Shown in pieces: positions 3,374 through 10,610 of a stretch of 10,727 bases of DNA. Under the pieces are notes generated by a model. It had not been told where the DNA came from, did not search any database, and saw nothing but the letters and a program-made list of their open reading frames with translations. This DNA comes from an uncultured Rhizobiaceae group bacterium (GTDB lineage: Bacteria; Pseudomonadota; Alphaproteobacteria; Rhizobiales; Rhizobiaceae): NCBI GenBank assembly GCA_905479965.1, contig CAJQOR010000223.1:1-10727 (forward strand), given 5' to 3'. Position numbers and translations under genes: made by a program. Numbering within the stretch: position 1 is the first letter of the stretch; each line of letters opens with the position of its first letter.

Positions 3374-3679
3374 ATGGCACTTAGTAAATTAAGCTCACGA
3401 AAAAGAAAACGCATGAGATTGAATGAGGATTGCAGTATTGAAAGTGCGCACCATTCATCAGGTGGTCGATTGGTCAATGTTTCAGAACAAGGAGTATGTG
3501 TTCAGTTACAAAGAACCATGCAGCTCAGTGACGGTGCAAATGTTAAGATATTTACTGAAAAAGCAGGCAGTCTTTTTGGTAAAATAGCTTGGCAGCACAA
3601 AAACCTGGTAGGCGTTGAATTGGAACTCAACTCGAACACCTACGCAAAAACACTCTCGCTCATTCGCGAACCAGCTTAG
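3374..3679 (+). CDS. Single-domain PilZ protein (predicted c-di-GMP binder)
   Basis: A 101-residue protein made up almost entirely of a PilZ domain, the common receptor for cyclic di-GMP. The binding signature is visible: a basic RxxxR stretch at residues 9-15 (RKRKRMR) followed by NVSEQG at 35-40, matching the (D/N)xSxxG motif. The beta-strand pattern continues through VCVQL, ANVKIF, GKIAWQ and LVGVEL. The start is supported by a GGAG/AGG stretch at 3362-3369 ahead of the ATG. The gene stands alone between the LysR regulator and the convergent arsenic operon. Its output partner cannot be read from the sequence. A c-di-GMP phosphodiesterase lies 4 kb away in this window, but nothing links the two beyond the shared ligand. 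Confidence 0.82.
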   Translation: MALSKLSSRKRKRMRLNEDCSIESAHHSSGGRLVNVSEQGVCVQLQRTMQLSDGANVKIFTEKAGSLFGKIAWQHKNLVGVELELNSNTYAKTLSLIREPA

Positions 3680-3709
3680 AACTTTTCATCCCTTATATGT
3701 AGCCGCTCA

Positions 3710-4426
3710 TTAAATCGAGCGTTGATTAACCCGTTCCATCAGCGCTTCGGCTGTTTCTACGCGTTCTGAATAGCGATCAACAAGATATTCTGAACGCCCA
3801 CGGGTTAAGTATGTGAATTTGACCAGTTCCTCGCACACATCAACAATCCGATTATAAAACCCAGATGGCTTCATGCGATCATCATTGTCAAACTCTGTCC
3901 ACGCCTTGGCAACCGATGACTGGTTGGGAATTGTAATCATCCGCATCCAGCGACCTAATATACGCATTTGATTGACTGCATTAAAGCTCTGAGACCCACC
4001 ATTTACTTGCATAACAGCAAGCGTTTTTCCTTGTGTTGGACGCACAGCTCCAACAGCTAATGGTATCCAATCTATTTGCGCTTTCATTATCCCCGTCATT
4101 GACCCATGGCGTTCAGGTGACACCCAAACCATGCCTTCAGACCATTTTGCAAGTTCACGCAGTTCCTGCACTTTTTCACTGTCTTCGGCTTTTACAGCAT
4201 CTGGCAAAGGCAAATCGGTTGGATTAAAGATTTTTGCGTCGCAGCCGAGAGCTTCTAATAAGCGTTTAGATTCTTCTGCAACAAGACGAGAGAAAGACCG
4301 TTCGCGCAAAGAGCCATACAGTAAAAGTATACGAGGTGGATGATCAAAATCACTTGCATTTACAAGTTCTTGTTGCCGGATTTGCTGAAATTGATTCAAC
4401 TCGACATTCTTTAGTTCATCACTCAT
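3710..4426 (-). CDS. arsH: ArsH, NADPH-dependent FMN reductase of arsenic resistance
   Basis: ArsH is a flavodoxin-fold, tetrameric FMN protein that uses NADPH. Members oxidise trivalent organoarsenicals to the less toxic pentavalent forms and reduce quinones or other acceptors. The 238-residue length is usual for the family. The FMN-phosphate loop is [13 protein letters not shown] (residues 35-47). The family-typical [22 protein letters not shown] and the [20 protein letters not shown] stretch follow, with [17 protein letters not shown] near residue 160. ATGA overlap with arsC (4423-4426) indicates translational coupling. It is the last gene of the arsR-(Cys-rich)-arsC-arsH unit and is convergent with the PilZ gene. 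Identity is clear. The substrate in this organism is not, since no arsM or arsI gene for organoarsenicals is seen here. Confidence 0.95.
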
Positions 4427-4818
4427 TTAATGCGCTCACCATCTTCTTTGGTAAATTCCGATATTTCACGAGCAAGAAGCGGAAGAACTTCCTCCGATGG
4501 CCGACAAAGCTTGACGCCTTTAGATGAACAAACAATCGGTCGATTGACCAAGACAGGGTGTTCAAGCATTGCATCCAACAGCGTTTCATCAGATACGTTT
4601 TCATCTAACAACCCCAACTCTTCAGCTGGTGATTTTGATGTACGCAAAGCTTGACGCGGAGTTAGATCAGCAGCTGCAAATAAAGCTAACAATTGTGGAC
4701 GGGACCATCCCTCTTTGAGATATTCAATAACGACGGGCTCTTCGCCAGATGTTTTGATCATCTCCAACACGTTTCGTGATGTTCCGCAGTCAGGGTTATG
4801 GTGAATAACAATGCTCAT
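4423..4818 (-). CDS. arsC: Arsenate reductase, glutaredoxin-dependent ArsC
   Basis: The protein reduces arsenate to arsenite in the cytoplasm using glutathione and glutaredoxin. From the ATG at 4818 it has 131 residues, near the usual size of the E. coli plasmid R773-type class. The catalytic cysteine lies in [11 protein letters not shown] (C11). The three arginines that bind the oxyanion in this class have clear counterparts, in [16 protein letters not shown] and [10 protein letters not shown]. The frame stays open 25 codons further upstream, but that part overlaps the cysteine-rich gene and does not resemble ArsC. The chosen ATG has a weak AAAGA seven bases ahead. It lies 23 bases after the cysteine-rich gene and overlaps arsH by four bases. 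Its product, arsenite, is more toxic and normally needs an exporter; none is encoded next to it. Confidence 0.95.
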
Positions 4819-4841
4819 AATTTGTCTTTCATGGTTCAAAT

Positions 4842-5033
4842 TTAATGACAACAAGTTTGTATTTTTAATGATGGCTCTATTTTTTCTGAACAACCACAGC
4901 CTTGTTCACCAGATGTCTTGGCGACTTCATCCTGGCGGCAGCATGCCTGTTGATCTTTGACAGCAGGACCACCGCAGCACGTATCAGTCTTTTTGTTCAA
5001 ATCGATATCTCGTTCAGTCATTGGAGTCCCCAT
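4842..5033 (-). CDS. Small cysteine-rich protein of the ars operon (candidate metalloid binder)
   Basis: A 63-residue hydrophilic protein with eight cysteines in four close pairs: C19-C20 (TCCGGP), C31-C32 (ACCRQ), C46-C48 (GCGCS) and C61-C62 (TCCH at the C-terminus). It has no signal peptide or membrane segment. The CCGG motif also occurs in the C-terminus of the neighbouring ArsR. Vicinal thiols of this kind are known As(III) ligands in ArsR, ArsD and ArsM, so binding of arsenite for storage or delivery is a reasonable inference; no family is recognised. The gene begins four bases after the arsR stop codon. A second in-frame ATG at 5021, preceded by GGGGA at five bases, is an equally good start and would give 59 residues. 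It sits where S. meliloti has aqpS. Confidence 0.75.
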   Translation of the reverse strand: MGTPMTERDIDLNKKTDTCCGGPAVKDQQACCRQDEVAKTSGEQGCGCSEKIEPSLKIQTCCH

Positions 5034-5037
5034 TTAT

Positions 5038-5370
5038 TCAACAGCATTTCATAATTTTAGCAATTGCGATCTGACAGGCTTCTGGATCGCCACCGCAACA
5101 ATCTTCCATTAAAAAAGACAACAGCTCACTTAGATTATCAAAATCAATTGAGTACCTAATGAAGCGCCCTTCCCGTGTGCTTTGAAGCAGACCTGCATTG
5201 GACAGTACACTCAAGTTCGATGACATAGTGTTTTGCTTCACCCCGAGTGCATCGGCAATGTCACCTGCAAGCATCCCACCGCTTCCAGCTTTAACTAGCA
5301 GCCTGAACACTTGGAGGCGGGTTTCCTGCGCGAGGGCGGAAAAATGTGCGATTGCAGTATTAATATCCAT
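5038..5370 (-). CDS. arsR: ArsR-family arsenite-responsive repressor
   Basis: A 110-residue winged-helix repressor. The ArsR core runs from residue 8 (AHFSALAQETRLQVFRLLV) through the recognition region (LGVKQNTMSSNLSVLSNAGL) and the wing (GLLQSTREGRFIRYSI). The C-terminus carries C91-C92 in EDCCGGDPEAC, C99, and a terminal C109-C110 pair. There is no cysteine in the recognition helix, so this is not the E. coli CVCD-type sensor. The arrangement instead resembles the C-terminal As(III) site described for Acidithiobacillus ferrooxidans ArsR. Arsenite would release the protein from DNA and induce the operon. The start ATG has an in-frame TGA two codons upstream and no Shine-Dalgarno. Its own operator overlaps the start codon, implying tight autoregulation. 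Confidence 0.95.
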   Translation of the reverse strand: MDINTAIAHFSALAQETRLQVFRLLVKAGSGGMLAGDIADALGVKQNTMSSNLSVLSNAGLLQSTREGRFIRYSIDFDNLSELLSFLMEDCCGGDPEACQIAIAKIMKCC

Positions 5371-5399
5371 ATATCATGAATTATCGATATATGGATATT
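5362..5399. promoter_or_regulatory. ArsR operator: perfect 14-bp inverted repeat
   Basis: AATATCCATATATC (5362-5375) is repeated in perfect inverse as GATATATGGATATT (5386-5399) around a ten-base centre. The left arm covers the arsR start codon (5368-5370) and the predicted transcription start, and the centre holds the predicted -10. It is the expected form and place for an ArsR dimer site controlling its own operon. Confidence 0.75.
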
Positions 5400-5406
5400 C
5401 TGTCAA
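5380..5406 (-). promoter_or_regulatory. arsR promoter, probably giving a leaderless mRNA
   Basis: The minus strand has a consensus TTGACA (complement of 5401-5406) and GATAAT (complement of 5380-5385) separated by 15 bases. The spacer is two bases short of the ideal 17, and almost all of it is the upstream arm of the operator. The predicted start point is about 5373, only three bases before the arsR ATG. With no Shine-Dalgarno upstream, the transcript would be leaderless or nearly so. Confidence 0.5.
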
Positions 5407-5430
5407 GCGATATTCTTTGATTGCTTGATT

Positions 5431-6222
5431 TTATTCACACAACCGATAGCCCGACTTCCGAAACGCGAGATCAAAGTGGAAATGATCTTGATGGGTTATA
5501 TTAGCTCCGGGACCCAGCACCGTAGTGAAATAAGCGCACGCCCCTGCTCTCGCCGCCGCTTGGAATTTGGTATTCGATAACGCCTCTTTCACGCTATCTG
5601 TATTTGTTTGCACATTAATGACAGAACCGTTTTCTAGCTCAAATCCAGTAATATCCACTCCATTCGCAAAACCGTGCTCGCTAATTTTCCCGCCGGGCTT
5701 ATTATTGCGGGTACGACAATGATAAGAAGTAGAGGTTTTAAGCGACTTGACGTCCTGACTTAAATACAATTTAGCCGAAGGGCGGACGATATTCTTGATC
5801 CAGTCATCTAAGGCGAGCACGACTTCACATCGCAGGGTAATTTCGCGCGACAAAGACATTCCGTCACTTAAACGAGTTACTGTTAGCGGGCGTTCAACAA
5901 TGCAGCCCTTTTCATCCGTGATTTGTTTTTCAACTTTAAAAGCAACACGGCGGGATGCGAGCTTCTGCTCACATTGTTTTGCGACTTTAAGATCAAATGG
6001 CGGCTTGTTTTTTGCCCCTTCAAAGGGCTGAGCGGTCTTATTGTCGGCCACATGGTCATATTCGAGCGTTATTGCGGGAATTGGCACAGGATCCCATGGC
6101 TCAACATCCTCAGCATGAAGATTTTGCAACCAAAACGCACTCATTACGGCCGACAGAATAATTAATCGTATGAGATCAGAAATTATCCTTACGCTTTCTA
6201 ATTTCTGCAAAGACATCAACAT
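5431..6222 (-). CDS. Exported extensin-like protein (DUF extensin-like C-terminal domain)
   Basis: The C-terminal half matches the extensin-like C-terminal family, which has the fold of LAS/M15-type peptidoglycan peptidases. Visible marks are VRPSAKLYLSQDVKSL, SYHCRTRN, SEHGFANGVDITGF and HQDHFHFDLAF. The His and Asp of SEHGxxxxxD and the final HFH supply the expected zinc ligands, so an envelope peptidase role is possible but unproven for this family. The N-terminus has a basic/hydrophobic signal segment (IRLIILSAVMSAFWLQNLHA, likely cleavage before EDVEPW). Six cysteines in the mature part could form disulfides. The start is uncertain: ATGs at 6231, 6222 and 6216 all lie inside the 3' end of gloB. 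6222 was chosen because GGAAG is nine bases ahead. It ends 60 bases before arsR. Confidence 0.82.
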   Translation of the reverse strand: MLMSLQKLESVRIISDLIRLIILSAVMSAFWLQNLHAEDVEPWDPVPIPAITLEYDHVADNKTAQPFEGAKNKPPFDLKVAKQCEQKLASRRVAFKVEKQITDEKGCIVERPLTVTRLSDGMSLSREITLRCEVVLALDDWIKNIVRPSAKLYLSQDVKSLKTSTSYHCRTRNNKPGGKISEHGFANGVDITGFELENGSVINVQTNTDSVKEALSNTKFQAAARAGACAYFTTVLGPGANITHQDHFHFDLAFRKSGYRLCE

Positions 6223-6940
6223 CTTGTGCATCTTCCATGTTCAAATGCGCGCGAATTGCCATATCCCCAGCCCGTAAAAACGGATTTGTTGCAAGCTCTA
6301 TTGATAACATAGTTGGCACAGTGCTTTCGCCGGTGCGTCGTAAAGAGGCGACCAATTCACTGCGGTTCTGCAATGCTTCATTAGTTGGATCAACAGAAAG
6401 TGCAAACCCAACATTCGCCTCTGTATATTCATGTGCACAGTAAATGATTGTATCTTCCGGTAAGCTTGTGAGCTTTTGGAGCGATTGCCACATCATTTCA
6501 GCCGAGCCTTCAAACAAACGCCCGCACCCCATAACAAATAACGTATCACCCGAGAAAAGCACCTTACCATCCTCGATATAATAATTGAGCATATCAGTCG
6601 TATGGCCAGGGGTATGAATTGGCGTGACTAAATGGCCTGCAAACTCGAAGCTATCACCTTCTTTGATCGCTTTATCCAGACCCAAAATTGAAGACCCATA
6701 ATCTGGCCCAACAACAAGACACTGAGTTTTCTCTTTAATCTCTAGCAAATGCGAGGTGTGATCGGCATGATGATGGGTGATCCAAACTTCTGATAATCGC
6801 CAGCCTTTTTCCTCAAGTGCTGCAAACATTGCATCCGCATCACCTGCATCAATACAAGCGGTTTCACCAGTTTCATCTTCATGTACCAACACACCATAAT
6901 TATCAGATCGATAGGCGAATTGGTGAAAGTGTAGCGCCAT
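6176..6940 (-). CDS. gloB: Hydroxyacylglutathione hydrolase (glyoxalase II)
   Basis: This metallo-beta-lactamase-fold enzyme hydrolyses S-lactoylglutathione to lactate and glutathione, the second step of methylglyoxal detoxification. All metal ligands can be seen in the 254-residue protein: THHHADH (H56, H58, D60, H61), PGHT (H113), SGDT (D132) and AHEYT (H170). The C-terminal glyoxalase II domain is present, with NRSELVASLRRTGESTVPTM and the terminal RKRKDNF. Length and order are normal. The start is set by TAATG overlap with gloA (6938-6942), so the two are translationally coupled. The extensin-like gene begins within its last codons. Confidence 0.95.
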   Translation of the reverse strand: MALHFHQFAYRSDNYGVLVHEDETGETACIDAGDADAMFAALEEKGWRLSEVWITHHHADHTSHLLEIKEKTQCLVVGPDYGSSILGLDKAIKEGDSFEFAGHLVTPIHTPGHTTDMLNYYIEDGKVLFSGDTLFVMGCGRLFEGSAEMMWQSLQKLTSLPEDTIIYCAHEYTEANVGFALSVDPTNEALQNRSELVASLRRTGESTVPTMLSIELATNPFLRAGDMAIRAHLNMEDAQDVDVFAEIRKRKDNF

Positions 6941-7392
6941 TACCAGCTACCTTCATTTTTCATTGAAGCCCAAGGTTCTTGCACGGGTAGCGCATCACCT
7001 TCCTGCAAAAGCTCAATGGAAATATCATCAGGTGACTTTACAAATGCCATGCGCCCATCGCGTGGTGGACGATTAATTACGACACCTTGGTCCATCAGTT
7101 TTTGGCAGAAATCATAGATATTTTCGACTGTATAAGCTAAATGCCCCCACGAACGAGCCGTTGCGTAAGTTTCGTCTCCCTCCCAATTATACGTTAGTTC
7201 AAGCGTTGGCGCTTCGTTCTTTAAAGCTTCATCCTGATCTTGGTCAGCCGCGAGGAATATAAGCGTAAATTTGCCCTCCGGCACTTCTTTTCGCCTTACT
7301 TCAATGAGGCCCATTTTTTTGCACCAGAAATCGAGAGATTGATCCAAATCAGTCACGCGGATCATTGTATGTAAGTAACGCATTGTATTCAT
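6940..7392 (-). CDS. gloA: Lactoylglutathione lyase (glyoxalase I)
   Basis: The enzyme converts the methylglyoxal-glutathione hemithioacetal to S-lactoylglutathione. The 150-residue protein has the two-module vicinal-oxygen-chelate layout of the short bacterial type. The four metal ligands can be placed: H8 (RYLHTMIRV), E65 (TLELTYNW), H84 (WGHLAYTV) and E127 (ISIELLQ). DQSLDFWCKKMGL and KSPDDISIELL are typical family stretches. The lack of the inserts found in the long zinc form suggests the nickel/cobalt-preferring class, by inference. The first ATG follows GGAAGG closely; a second in-frame ATG at 7383 is possible. The gene is first in the gloA-gloB-extensin unit. Confidence 0.95.
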   Translation of the reverse strand: MNTMRYLHTMIRVTDLDQSLDFWCKKMGLIEVRRKEVPEGKFTLIFLAADQDQDEALKNEAPTLELTYNWEGDETYATARSWGHLAYTVENIYDFCQKLMDQGVVINRPPRDGRMAFVKSPDDISIELLQEGDALPVQEPWASMKNEGSW

Positions 7393-9377: not shown

Positions 9378-10610
9378 ATGGCAAGCGTTAGAAACGTAAA
9401 ATTTGAAGGCTCTTTAAACGAAACACTGGTTGCGCGACTGCACTTACCAGAAGGTGCAACACATGCTTATGCAATTTTTGCCCATTGCTTTACCTGTACA
9501 AAAGACATTCTCGCAGCCCGCAAGATTGCAGATGAGTTATCCAAACGCGGCATTGCCCTCCTGCGCTTTGACTTCACCGGATTAGGTGCATCCTCAGGCA
9601 ATTTTGAAAACACAACGTTTACATCAAATATCGGTGACATATTGGCAGCAGCGCAGTTCTTACGCGCAAATTATGAAGCACCGAAAATTCTAATCGGCCA
9701 TTCACTAGGTGGCGCTGCCATTTTAGCGGCTGCAGGCGAAGTACCCGAAGCCAAAGCTGTTGCCACAATCGGTGCGCCAGCGGATGCTGATCACGTCATC
9801 CATAATTTCGGCGCGCATCTTGATGAGATTGAAGAAAAAGGCATTGCAGAAGTTAAACTTGCTGGCCGCCCGTTTTCTATCAAGCAGGAATTTGTCAAAG
9901 ACCTTCGCTCTCATTCAGTCACGGTAGAAGAACGCGTTGCGAAAATGAACAAAGCATTGATGGTTTTGCATTCACCTATTGATAACACGGTCGGAATTGA
10001 AAATGCCGGCAAAATTTATTCAGCAGCGAAACACCCAAAAAGCTTTGTCTCGCTCGATACTGCTGATCATCTATTATCTAGCTCAAAAGATGTGGCGTAT
10101 GTTGCTGAAGTTATCTCCGCATGGGCGACGCGCTACGTAGATTATGATTATAAGGCTGCACAAAACCCTGTGATTGATGGCGCTGAGGTCAGCGAAACCA
10201 AAGACGGTAAGTTCCAAAACTCTGTGCGCGTTGGCAAACACTCTTTGATGGCCGATGAGCCTGAAACCGTTGGTGGCCATGATACAGGTCCAAGCCCATA
10301 TGATTATTTAAATGTTGCACTTGGTGCATGCACATCTATGACAATTCGCATGTATGCCGACTTTAAGAAAATCCCGTTAAACCGCGTAACTGTTAACGTC
10401 ACACACAGTAAAACACATGCTGAAGATTGCGCTGAATGCAATCTTGAAGATGATACCGTTGGTAAGATTGATCGCTTTGAACGCCGCATCAAACTCGAGG
10501 GAGAATTTGATTCAGAAACGCGCGATAAGATGCTGAAAATAGCTGATAAATGCCCGGTGCACAAAACGCTTGAAGCACATTCGGCGATTGTGACGAAGTT
10601 GGCGGATTAA
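9378..10610 (+). CDS. Bifunctional alpha/beta hydrolase-OsmC fusion protein
   Basis: A 410-residue fusion. Residues about 1-255 are an alpha/beta hydrolase with the nucleophile elbow GHSLGG (S109), acid in HSPIDNTV (D202) and histidine in TADHLLS (H231), a complete triad. Residues about 266-410 are an OsmC/Ohr-type domain with its two redox cysteines in LGACTSM (C318) and DKCPVHKTLE (C392). OsmC-family proteins reduce organic hydroperoxides using these thiols. The same fusion order is known in many proteobacteria, though its natural substrate is not established; an esterase working on a hydroperoxide-bearing ester is one guess. The extra HCFTC (C37, C40) near the N-terminus may be redox-active. 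GGGGG at 9367-9371 lies six bases before the ATG. The gene stands alone, followed by a terminator. Confidence 0.93.
   Translation: MASVRNVKFEGSLNETLVARLHLPEGATHAYAIFAHCFTCTKDILAARKIADELSKRGIALLRFDFTGLGASSGNFENTTFTSNIGDILAAAQFLRANYEAPKILIGHSLGGAAILAAAGEVPEAKAVATIGAPADADHVIHNFGAHLDEIEEKGIAEVKLAGRPFSIKQEFVKDLRSHSVTVEERVAKMNKALMVLHSPIDNTVGIENAGKIYSAAKHPKSFVSLDTADHLLSSSKDVAYVAEVISAWATRYVDYDYKAAQNPVIDGAEVSETKDGKFQNSVRVGKHSLMADEPETVGGHDTGPSPYDYLNVALGACTSMTIRMYADFKKIPLNRVTVNVTHSKTHAEDCAECNLEDDTVGKIDRFERRIKLEGEFDSETRDKMLKIADKCPVHKTLEAHSAIVTKLAD

Follow-up and report, generated by a model that had tools for sequence, protein, structure and literature searches.

An ars operon with a cysteine-rich peptide gene

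The window, meaning the whole stretch of 10,727 nucleotides that was analyzed, belongs to a marine bacterium and carries on its minus strand an ars operon in the order arsR, peptide gene, arsC and arsH. The arsR gene (5038..5370, minus strand) encodes an ArsR/SmtB-type repressor (NF033788, 69 bits with a cut-off of 55), arsC (4423..4818, minus strand) encodes a glutaredoxin-type arsenate reductase (TIGR00014, 110.7 bits, cut-off 106.05) and arsH (3710..4426, minus strand) encodes an NADPH-FMN organoarsenical oxidoreductase (TIGR02690, 387 bits, cut-off 292.25). All three products score above cut-off. The open reading frame with eight paired cysteines that a sequence-only reading had placed in this operon is real. 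The genes are closely packed, with 16 nt between arsR and the peptide gene, 23 nt between the peptide gene and arsC, and a 4-nt overlap between arsC and arsH. In a repeat search, we found a 14-nt perfect inverted repeat spanning the arsR start (5362..5399), which is presumed to be the ArsR operator. When an internal promoter was sought on the minus strand between arsR and arsC, no promoter-like site was found, and positions 3600-5500 hold five terminator-like sites versus 2.0 expected, two of which lie on the minus strand inside arsC.

The longest frame of the peptide spans 4842-5033 on the minus strand, and its likely start is an internal ATG at 5021. We placed the start there because a GGGGA sequence lies just upstream and because the homologues P0001, P0002, L010 and L011 begin at this position, so that the gene (4842..5021, minus strand) encodes 59 residues followed by a stop codon. 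Its cysteines are residues 15, 16, 27, 28, 42, 44, 57 and 58. The CCGG motif that the peptide had been said to have in common with ArsR was borne out as ArsR residues 91-94; the repressor has cysteines at 91, 92, 99, 109 and 110, which form a C-terminal CCGG-x4-C and a CC. Searching the peptide against Pfam returned no family at E 1, and NCBIfam returned one unrelated model at chance level (E 0.53, 10.1 bits versus a cut-off of 174). A search for phage carriage of the peptide gave no match. The structure model of the peptide was poor (pLDDT 53) with nothing readable past a tentative helix, and we therefore propose no site geometry. Elsewhere in the window, a glyoxalase I-like gene adjoins a hydroxyacylglutathione hydrolase gene (6176-7392), in one orientation with an extensin-like gene and the ars operon and upstream of both, and at 9378-10610 an alpha/beta hydrolase domain and an OsmC-like domain are joined in one protein.

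Conservation of the peptide among close relatives

Searched against 5.8 billion proteins, the peptide as sole query returned two relatives. We also scanned contigs guided by ArsR, keeping the best 80 of 572 related stretches. Among these, three loci from Rhizobiaceae metagenome-assembled genomes (MAGs), L009-L011, have the gene order of the window, with ArsR, ArsC and ArsH 87-93% identical and the peptide 47-58% identical, and the other 77 stretches showed no peptide at the threshold used. The same order is found in L126 of genome G015 (ArsR 70%, ArsC 85%, ArsH 82% and peptide 45% identical). The L126 peptide is exactly the protein P0128, which is named from Lentilitoribacter sp. Alg239-R112, and the ArsR of a Lentilitoribacter MAG is 89% identical to that of the window. 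We provisionally assign the window to this genus.

When the frame and its cysteines were checked for conservation in these related ars operons, both were kept: the peptide occupies the same slot in L009-L011 and L126, and none of the eight cysteines varies across the six rows of alignment A2 or is missing from L126. Comparing the window with L009-L011, dN was 0.11-0.17 in a core of 30 codons versus 0.71-0.77 in the flanks, while dS was 0.98-1.38 in the core and partly saturated elsewhere; for comparison, dN was 0.06 for arsC and 0.05-0.08 for arsR. The core of the peptide is under constraint and its ends are nearly free. Considering the same slot in relatives, the invariant cysteines and a core dN far below dS, the peptide is no chance frame. 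The arms of the operator-like repeat differ at 1 of 28 positions in each of L009, L010 and L011, and at 5 of 28 in L126.

The peptide core is shared with flavoprotein tails

The constrained core (4890..4979, minus strand; residues 15-44, from CCGG to GCGC) is delimited by its invariant positions, its low dN and a homology to flavoprotein tails that goes beyond the cysteines. It follows the pattern CCGG-x8-CC-x2-D-x2-AK-x2-G-x2-GCGC. Judged by sequence, the peptide is a free-standing copy of a module that otherwise forms the C-terminal tail of an arsenic-linked flavoprotein. Its six core cysteines (CC-x10-CC-x13-C-x-C) are present in 60 of 63 fused tails and in 120 of 120 small relatives among the matches listed, and the signature CCGG, ACC, D, AK, G, G, which includes residues other than cysteine, is invariant in alignments of 16 and 14 rows. 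A six-row profile of the peptide scored 28.4-50.5 bits against the 63 fused tails. The best score among shuffles with the cysteines fixed (200 per tail) was 23.7 bits, and because none of the 12,600 reached the score of its own tail, the likeness of peptide and tails is more than their common cysteines.

The six-frame search of plasmids gave 18 records. In six of the eight examined, an NAD(P)/FAD-binding protein is matched close to its C-terminus; of the other two, L001 is a broken flavoprotein and L005 holds no module recognized by pattern. Plasmid searches with two distant relatives found none. The profile of the Lentilitoribacter peptide matched 57 of 394 Rhizobiaceae genomes at E 0.01, three of them marginally (E 0.007-0.010; L137, L138 and L139), with no module on inspection. 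Wider profiles matched 14 of 385 Alphaproteobacteria, 11 of 299 and 15 of 398 Pseudomonadota, and 37 of 397 genomes of the order, in draws that overlap and with thresholds that differ between them.

Two of the tail-bearing flavoproteins scored 38.6 and 48.1 bits against ArsO (NF040505), below the equivalog cut-off of 425, and two of the adjacent transporters scored 219.7 and 159.2 bits against ArsK (NF033733), below the equivalog cut-off of 400, so that the transporters are related to ArsK without being ArsK by that model. Among 60 flavoproteins, cysteine is the majority residue at eight alignment columns, two of them in the body and six in the tail, and at each of these it is present in 60 of 60. 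An AlphaFold2 model from 41 sequences (mean pLDDT 83.6) has a confident body, a linker at residues 412-427 predicted to be disordered, and a moderately confident tail core at residues 431-450 (about 75). The solved folds nearest to the body are the bacillithiol disulfide reductase YpdA, thioredoxin reductase-like proteins and N-hydroxylating monooxygenases.

In three reports, ArsV is described as a methylarsenite-oxidizing flavoprotein and ArsW as an MFS permease (PMC10080717, PMC9144182, PMC11719878). Both systems place a flavoprotein next to an MFS transporter in Rhizobiaceae ars clusters, and a flavoprotein of this kind bears the module as its tail, whereas the window has neither the flavoprotein body nor an MFS gene. 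Our guess, from gene order and host range, is that the flavoprotein may be ArsV and the adjacent transporter ArsW. Another cysteine-tailed flavoprotein beside a transporter was seen in L089 (genome G003, contig C49, 284-2355), where a flavoprotein of 355 residues, with CCDGECEC at its end, runs into the beginning of an SBF-family transporter that has 69.7 bits to Acr3 (cut-off 282.8).

Fused, partial and free copies of the module

To place the peptide among these forms, we took a census of 96 loci, comprising the window, eight plasmid loci, three contig loci and 84 genome regions; the loci were chosen by profile match, a few genomes appear twice and some loci are near-identical (L195 and L196). 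The module was recognized in 86 of the 96. The ten without a module by pattern (L005, L137, L138, L139, L200, L205, L206, L207, L217 and L220) were kept outside the counts; in L205, L217 and L220 the flavoprotein body is still there and the module pattern is absent. Full fusions, defined as flavoproteins with at least 380 aligned body residues, occupy 63 of the 86 loci. An ArsR-type gene lies upstream in 59 of them, an ArsK-like transporter gene follows next downstream in 56, and all 63 have some ars-type gene in the locus. Partial flavoprotein bodies were found at five loci, of which L132 runs off its contig.

The remaining 18 loci have no body. We set apart a broken copy (L001), an end fragment (L131) and a fusion to a DUF6428 protein (L273), leaving 15 free-standing copies, a class over-represented because only five of the 37 order-level genomes were examined, chosen by unusual frame length. 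Ars-type neighbors are seen for ten of the 15: five with the order of the window (the window itself, L009-L011 and L126), four beside an ArsK-like transporter (L127, L130, L134 and L274), and L165, which stands alone behind an arsR-type gene. The other five (L128, L129, L141, L272 and L275) have no clear ars neighbor, although an ArsK-like gene lies about 3 kb from L128. Across these five loci, the neighbors include rhodanese, mandelate-racemase-like, FAD monooxygenase and GFA-family genes, among others. The DUF6428 fusion was seen once (L273:5936-6616): a DUF6428 protein (80.7 bits, cut-off 28.7) carries the module at its C-terminus, and its gene and an arsR-type gene are divergent.

Free copies recur in the very slot of the flavoprotein: in L127, L130 and L134 the peptide sits exactly where sister loci hold the whole flavoprotein. 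In L133 and L136 a flavoprotein lacking its middle or its front keeps the tail between the arsR-type gene and the transporter, and L001, L131, L133 and L136 all look like reduced flavoproteins with the tail retained. Since the tail outlives the loss of the body, it seems to have work of its own, though translational coupling to the transporter, rather than function, could also explain its survival. We considered whether the peptide of the window is itself a remnant of a decayed flavoprotein and rejected this for the present operon, because the peptide gene starts 16 nt past the end of arsR and its core is constrained.

The linkage of the motif with arsenic genes therefore stands, with an ars-type gene in the locus of 63 of 63 full fusions and 10 of 15 free copies. 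The narrower proposal, that the motif goes with an arsC lacking acr3, arsB or aqpS nearby, does not hold overall, since most copies examined are flavoprotein tails by an ArsK-like transporter, often next to acr3 or aqpS.

A wider family of small proteins

A profile from 14 free-standing rows gave 1097 small relatives at E 0.001 or better among 2617 candidates, in a search confined by design to small proteins; 120 of the relatives were listed. Among the matches listed, 107 of 120 have the stricter motif. At least ten of the 120 include parts of the flavoprotein's body, which makes them fragments rather than free peptides. The sources named among the matches listed include Kiloniella, Spirochaeta, Gracilibacillus, Paenibacillus and Nitrincola. 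None of twenty diverse members hit a Pfam or NCBIfam family at E 0.01, and a 16-row profile (A3) matched no PDB chain at E 10. The listed relatives are mostly called hypothetical protein, with one UniRef entry called Metallothionein. Because the members scanned have no family name and their named relatives are mostly called hypothetical, annotation overlooks the module. Our literature search found no paper naming such a module, subscription papers being mostly outside its reach.

The exit route for arsenite

In line with the first reading, no exporter or channel was found in the window: it gave no tblastn hit to the three queries used, an Acr3, an AqpS-type and an ArsK-like protein, and a Pfam scan of its ten other main open reading frames found no transporter family. 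Our genome-wide statements on the exit route rest on relatives rather than on the window's own genome. ArsB was found in none of G001, G002 and G003. Acr3 above cut-off was found in none of G001, G002, G003 and G015, with a 69-bit relative beside a flavoprotein in G003, and an ArsK-like match was absent from G001, G002 and G015, with one of 33 bits in G003. These absences are provisional because the completeness of the MAGs is not stated. The search for a distant acr3, arsB or aqpS nevertheless found an AqpS-type aquaporin gene in all four relatives (80-100% identical to the G001 query), at a separate locus (L228-L231) between genes that we take to be hemA and a cobW-type GTPase gene. In G343, G149, G092 and G215, the G001 query finds the aquaporin of the ars operon at 60-64% and a second aquaporin at 31-35%. 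By sequence, then, the aquaporin of the relatives is AqpS-type, being closer to ars-operon aquaporins than to others. Considering that four relatives keep this channel at another locus, arsenite can probably still leave through AqpS. A co-regulation of the distant gene by the ars operator was considered and rejected, as the four stretches hold no operator-like site (best, 11 of 28 mismatches).

Whether the peptide could stand in for the exit route, as had been suggested from its position, was also examined at 81 arsR loci, 33 of which have both arsC and arsH. In a test that covered acr3 and AqpS-type genes, 23 of the 33 have one of these genes in the examined stretch and ten have neither, four of these with the peptide and six without it. 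As 6 of 29 peptide-less loci thus also go without acr3 and AqpS-type genes, and as four relatives have the AqpS-type gene elsewhere, the peptide as an exporter replacement is weakened. The AqpS of Sinorhizobium meliloti does take the second position of an otherwise identical order in the sister operon L018, but it is a membrane channel, and the relatives that bear the peptide keep an AqpS-type gene at its own locus. We further considered ArsM as an internal source of methylarsenite and rejected it, since none of 11 genomes gave a match above cut-off; the weaker matches were general methyltransferases, perhaps not that in G388.

Discussion

Trivalent arsenicals seek vicinal cysteine pairs. The reading that we favor, still tentatively and at less than even confidence, is that the peptide may be a thiol module under ArsR control, which would capture trivalent arsenicals and pass them to other proteins, as a tethered part of the flavoprotein elsewhere and as a free peptide in this operon. 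Going by its sequence, it would probably grab trivalent arsenic rather than replace an exit channel. We infer that, when trivalent arsenic appears, ArsR would leave its operator and arsR, the peptide gene, arsC and arsH would be expressed together. The cysteine pairs of the peptide would then take up trivalent arsenic, either As(III) from ArsC or organoarsenicals entering the cell, and keep it away from other thiols. Captured organoarsenicals would pass by thiol exchange to ArsH, which we propose as the natural local partner, and inorganic As(III) would be passed towards exit by the AqpS-type channel encoded elsewhere in relatives. In other bacteria, the same module would be tied by its flexible linker to the flavoprotein that it serves. 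For the repressor, one report has conserved cysteines of A. ferrooxidans ArsR binding As(III) (PMC9137774), and the ArsR of the window has a comparable CCGG-x4-C. The direction of the ArsH reaction is disputed, as one study reports reduction in vivo (PMC9137774). The five of 15 free copies without clear ars neighbors count against capture and hand-off.

The main rival is that the peptide is a metallothionein-like sink, induced by arsenic and binding trivalent arsenic or soft metals stoichiometrically with no hand-off. We regard this as possible but rather unlikely. The peptide is indeed small, cysteine-dense and cytoplasmic by appearance, as bacterial metallothioneins are, and its linkers are free; in L165 the module is the only gene adjoining the arsR-type gene, and the one UniRef label of a distant relative as Metallothionein points the same way. 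However, its cysteines number only eight and keep a fixed pairing, and 63 of 86 loci have the module joined to an enzyme, an attachment that a plain sink would not need. The conserved D, AK and G, which are not cysteines, suggest a shaped site or a docking surface, and metallothionein families in Pfam matched neither the peptide at E 1 nor any of 20 relatives at E 0.01.

Large thioredoxin reductases have a mobile C-terminal arm, and the tail could likewise be a redox arm, its cysteines forming disulfides that the flavoprotein reduces, with the free copies as thiol-disulfide carriers. The resemblance of the body to YpdA and thioredoxin reductases is in line with this, as are a tail ending in C-x-C and a linker predicted to be disordered. 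Against it, the free copies of the window's genus have arsC and arsH, and no flavoprotein of this kind, next to them, and ars genes rather than thiol-redox genes are the neighbors in 10 of 15 free copies, which makes this explanation improbable. A module for zinc, copper or another metal, linked to arsenic by neighborhood alone, would account for the five free copies without clear ars neighbors, one of which (L129) lies a few kb from genes reading like a zinc-uptake ABC system; but all five same-genus copies with visible context sit inside an ars operon and each of the 63 loci with a full fusion includes an ars-type gene, and we consider it quite improbable. That the peptide tunes ArsR, competing for arsenite and so setting the threshold and shut-off of the operon, is very improbable: it adjoins arsR in the same direction and has CCGG in common with it, but any As(III) binder would do so in part, the fused copies and those away from ars genes are left unexplained, and nothing favors it.

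Returning to capture and hand-off, two known systems offer partial likenesses. The proposed role resembles that of the ArsD metallochaperone in carrying trivalent arsenic to the next protein by vicinal cysteines, but the peptide is half the size, there is no ArsB to serve in relatives (none of three), and no ArsD family was found for it in Pfam at E 1 or in NCBIfam, where the one unrelated model was its only match. In mercury resistance, a flexible linker joins the NmerA domain to mercuric reductase, which also has a C-terminal cysteine pair. By analogy, both systems would tether a metal-binding arm to a pyridine-nucleotide flavoprotein and have relatives of that arm that stand free, though sequence and metal are different and the arm here is a C-terminal cysteine module of 30 residues rather than a ferredoxin-like domain. 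In its boldest form, the module might be an undescribed mobile carrier domain for trivalent arsenic, used as a tethered arm in the flavoprotein and the DUF6428 protein or as a free peptide, with the free arm here serving ArsH and the unlinked AqpS-type channel in trans as an arsenic counterpart of NmerA; we hold this extended form to be speculative and on the whole unlikely. Since some genomes have the tethered version and others the free one at an equivalent place in the cluster, comparing the two would test directly what the tail does.

Taken all together, the operon itself is ordinary, and what it carries is a conserved module, repeatedly free-standing or fused and nameless in the libraries searched. 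Operons of the ars type are usually described as a sensor, a reductase, a pump and a few enzymes. That many of them encode a small thiol module, either fused as an enzyme tail or free, points to a step in which trivalent arsenic is handled after it is made and before it is disposed of.
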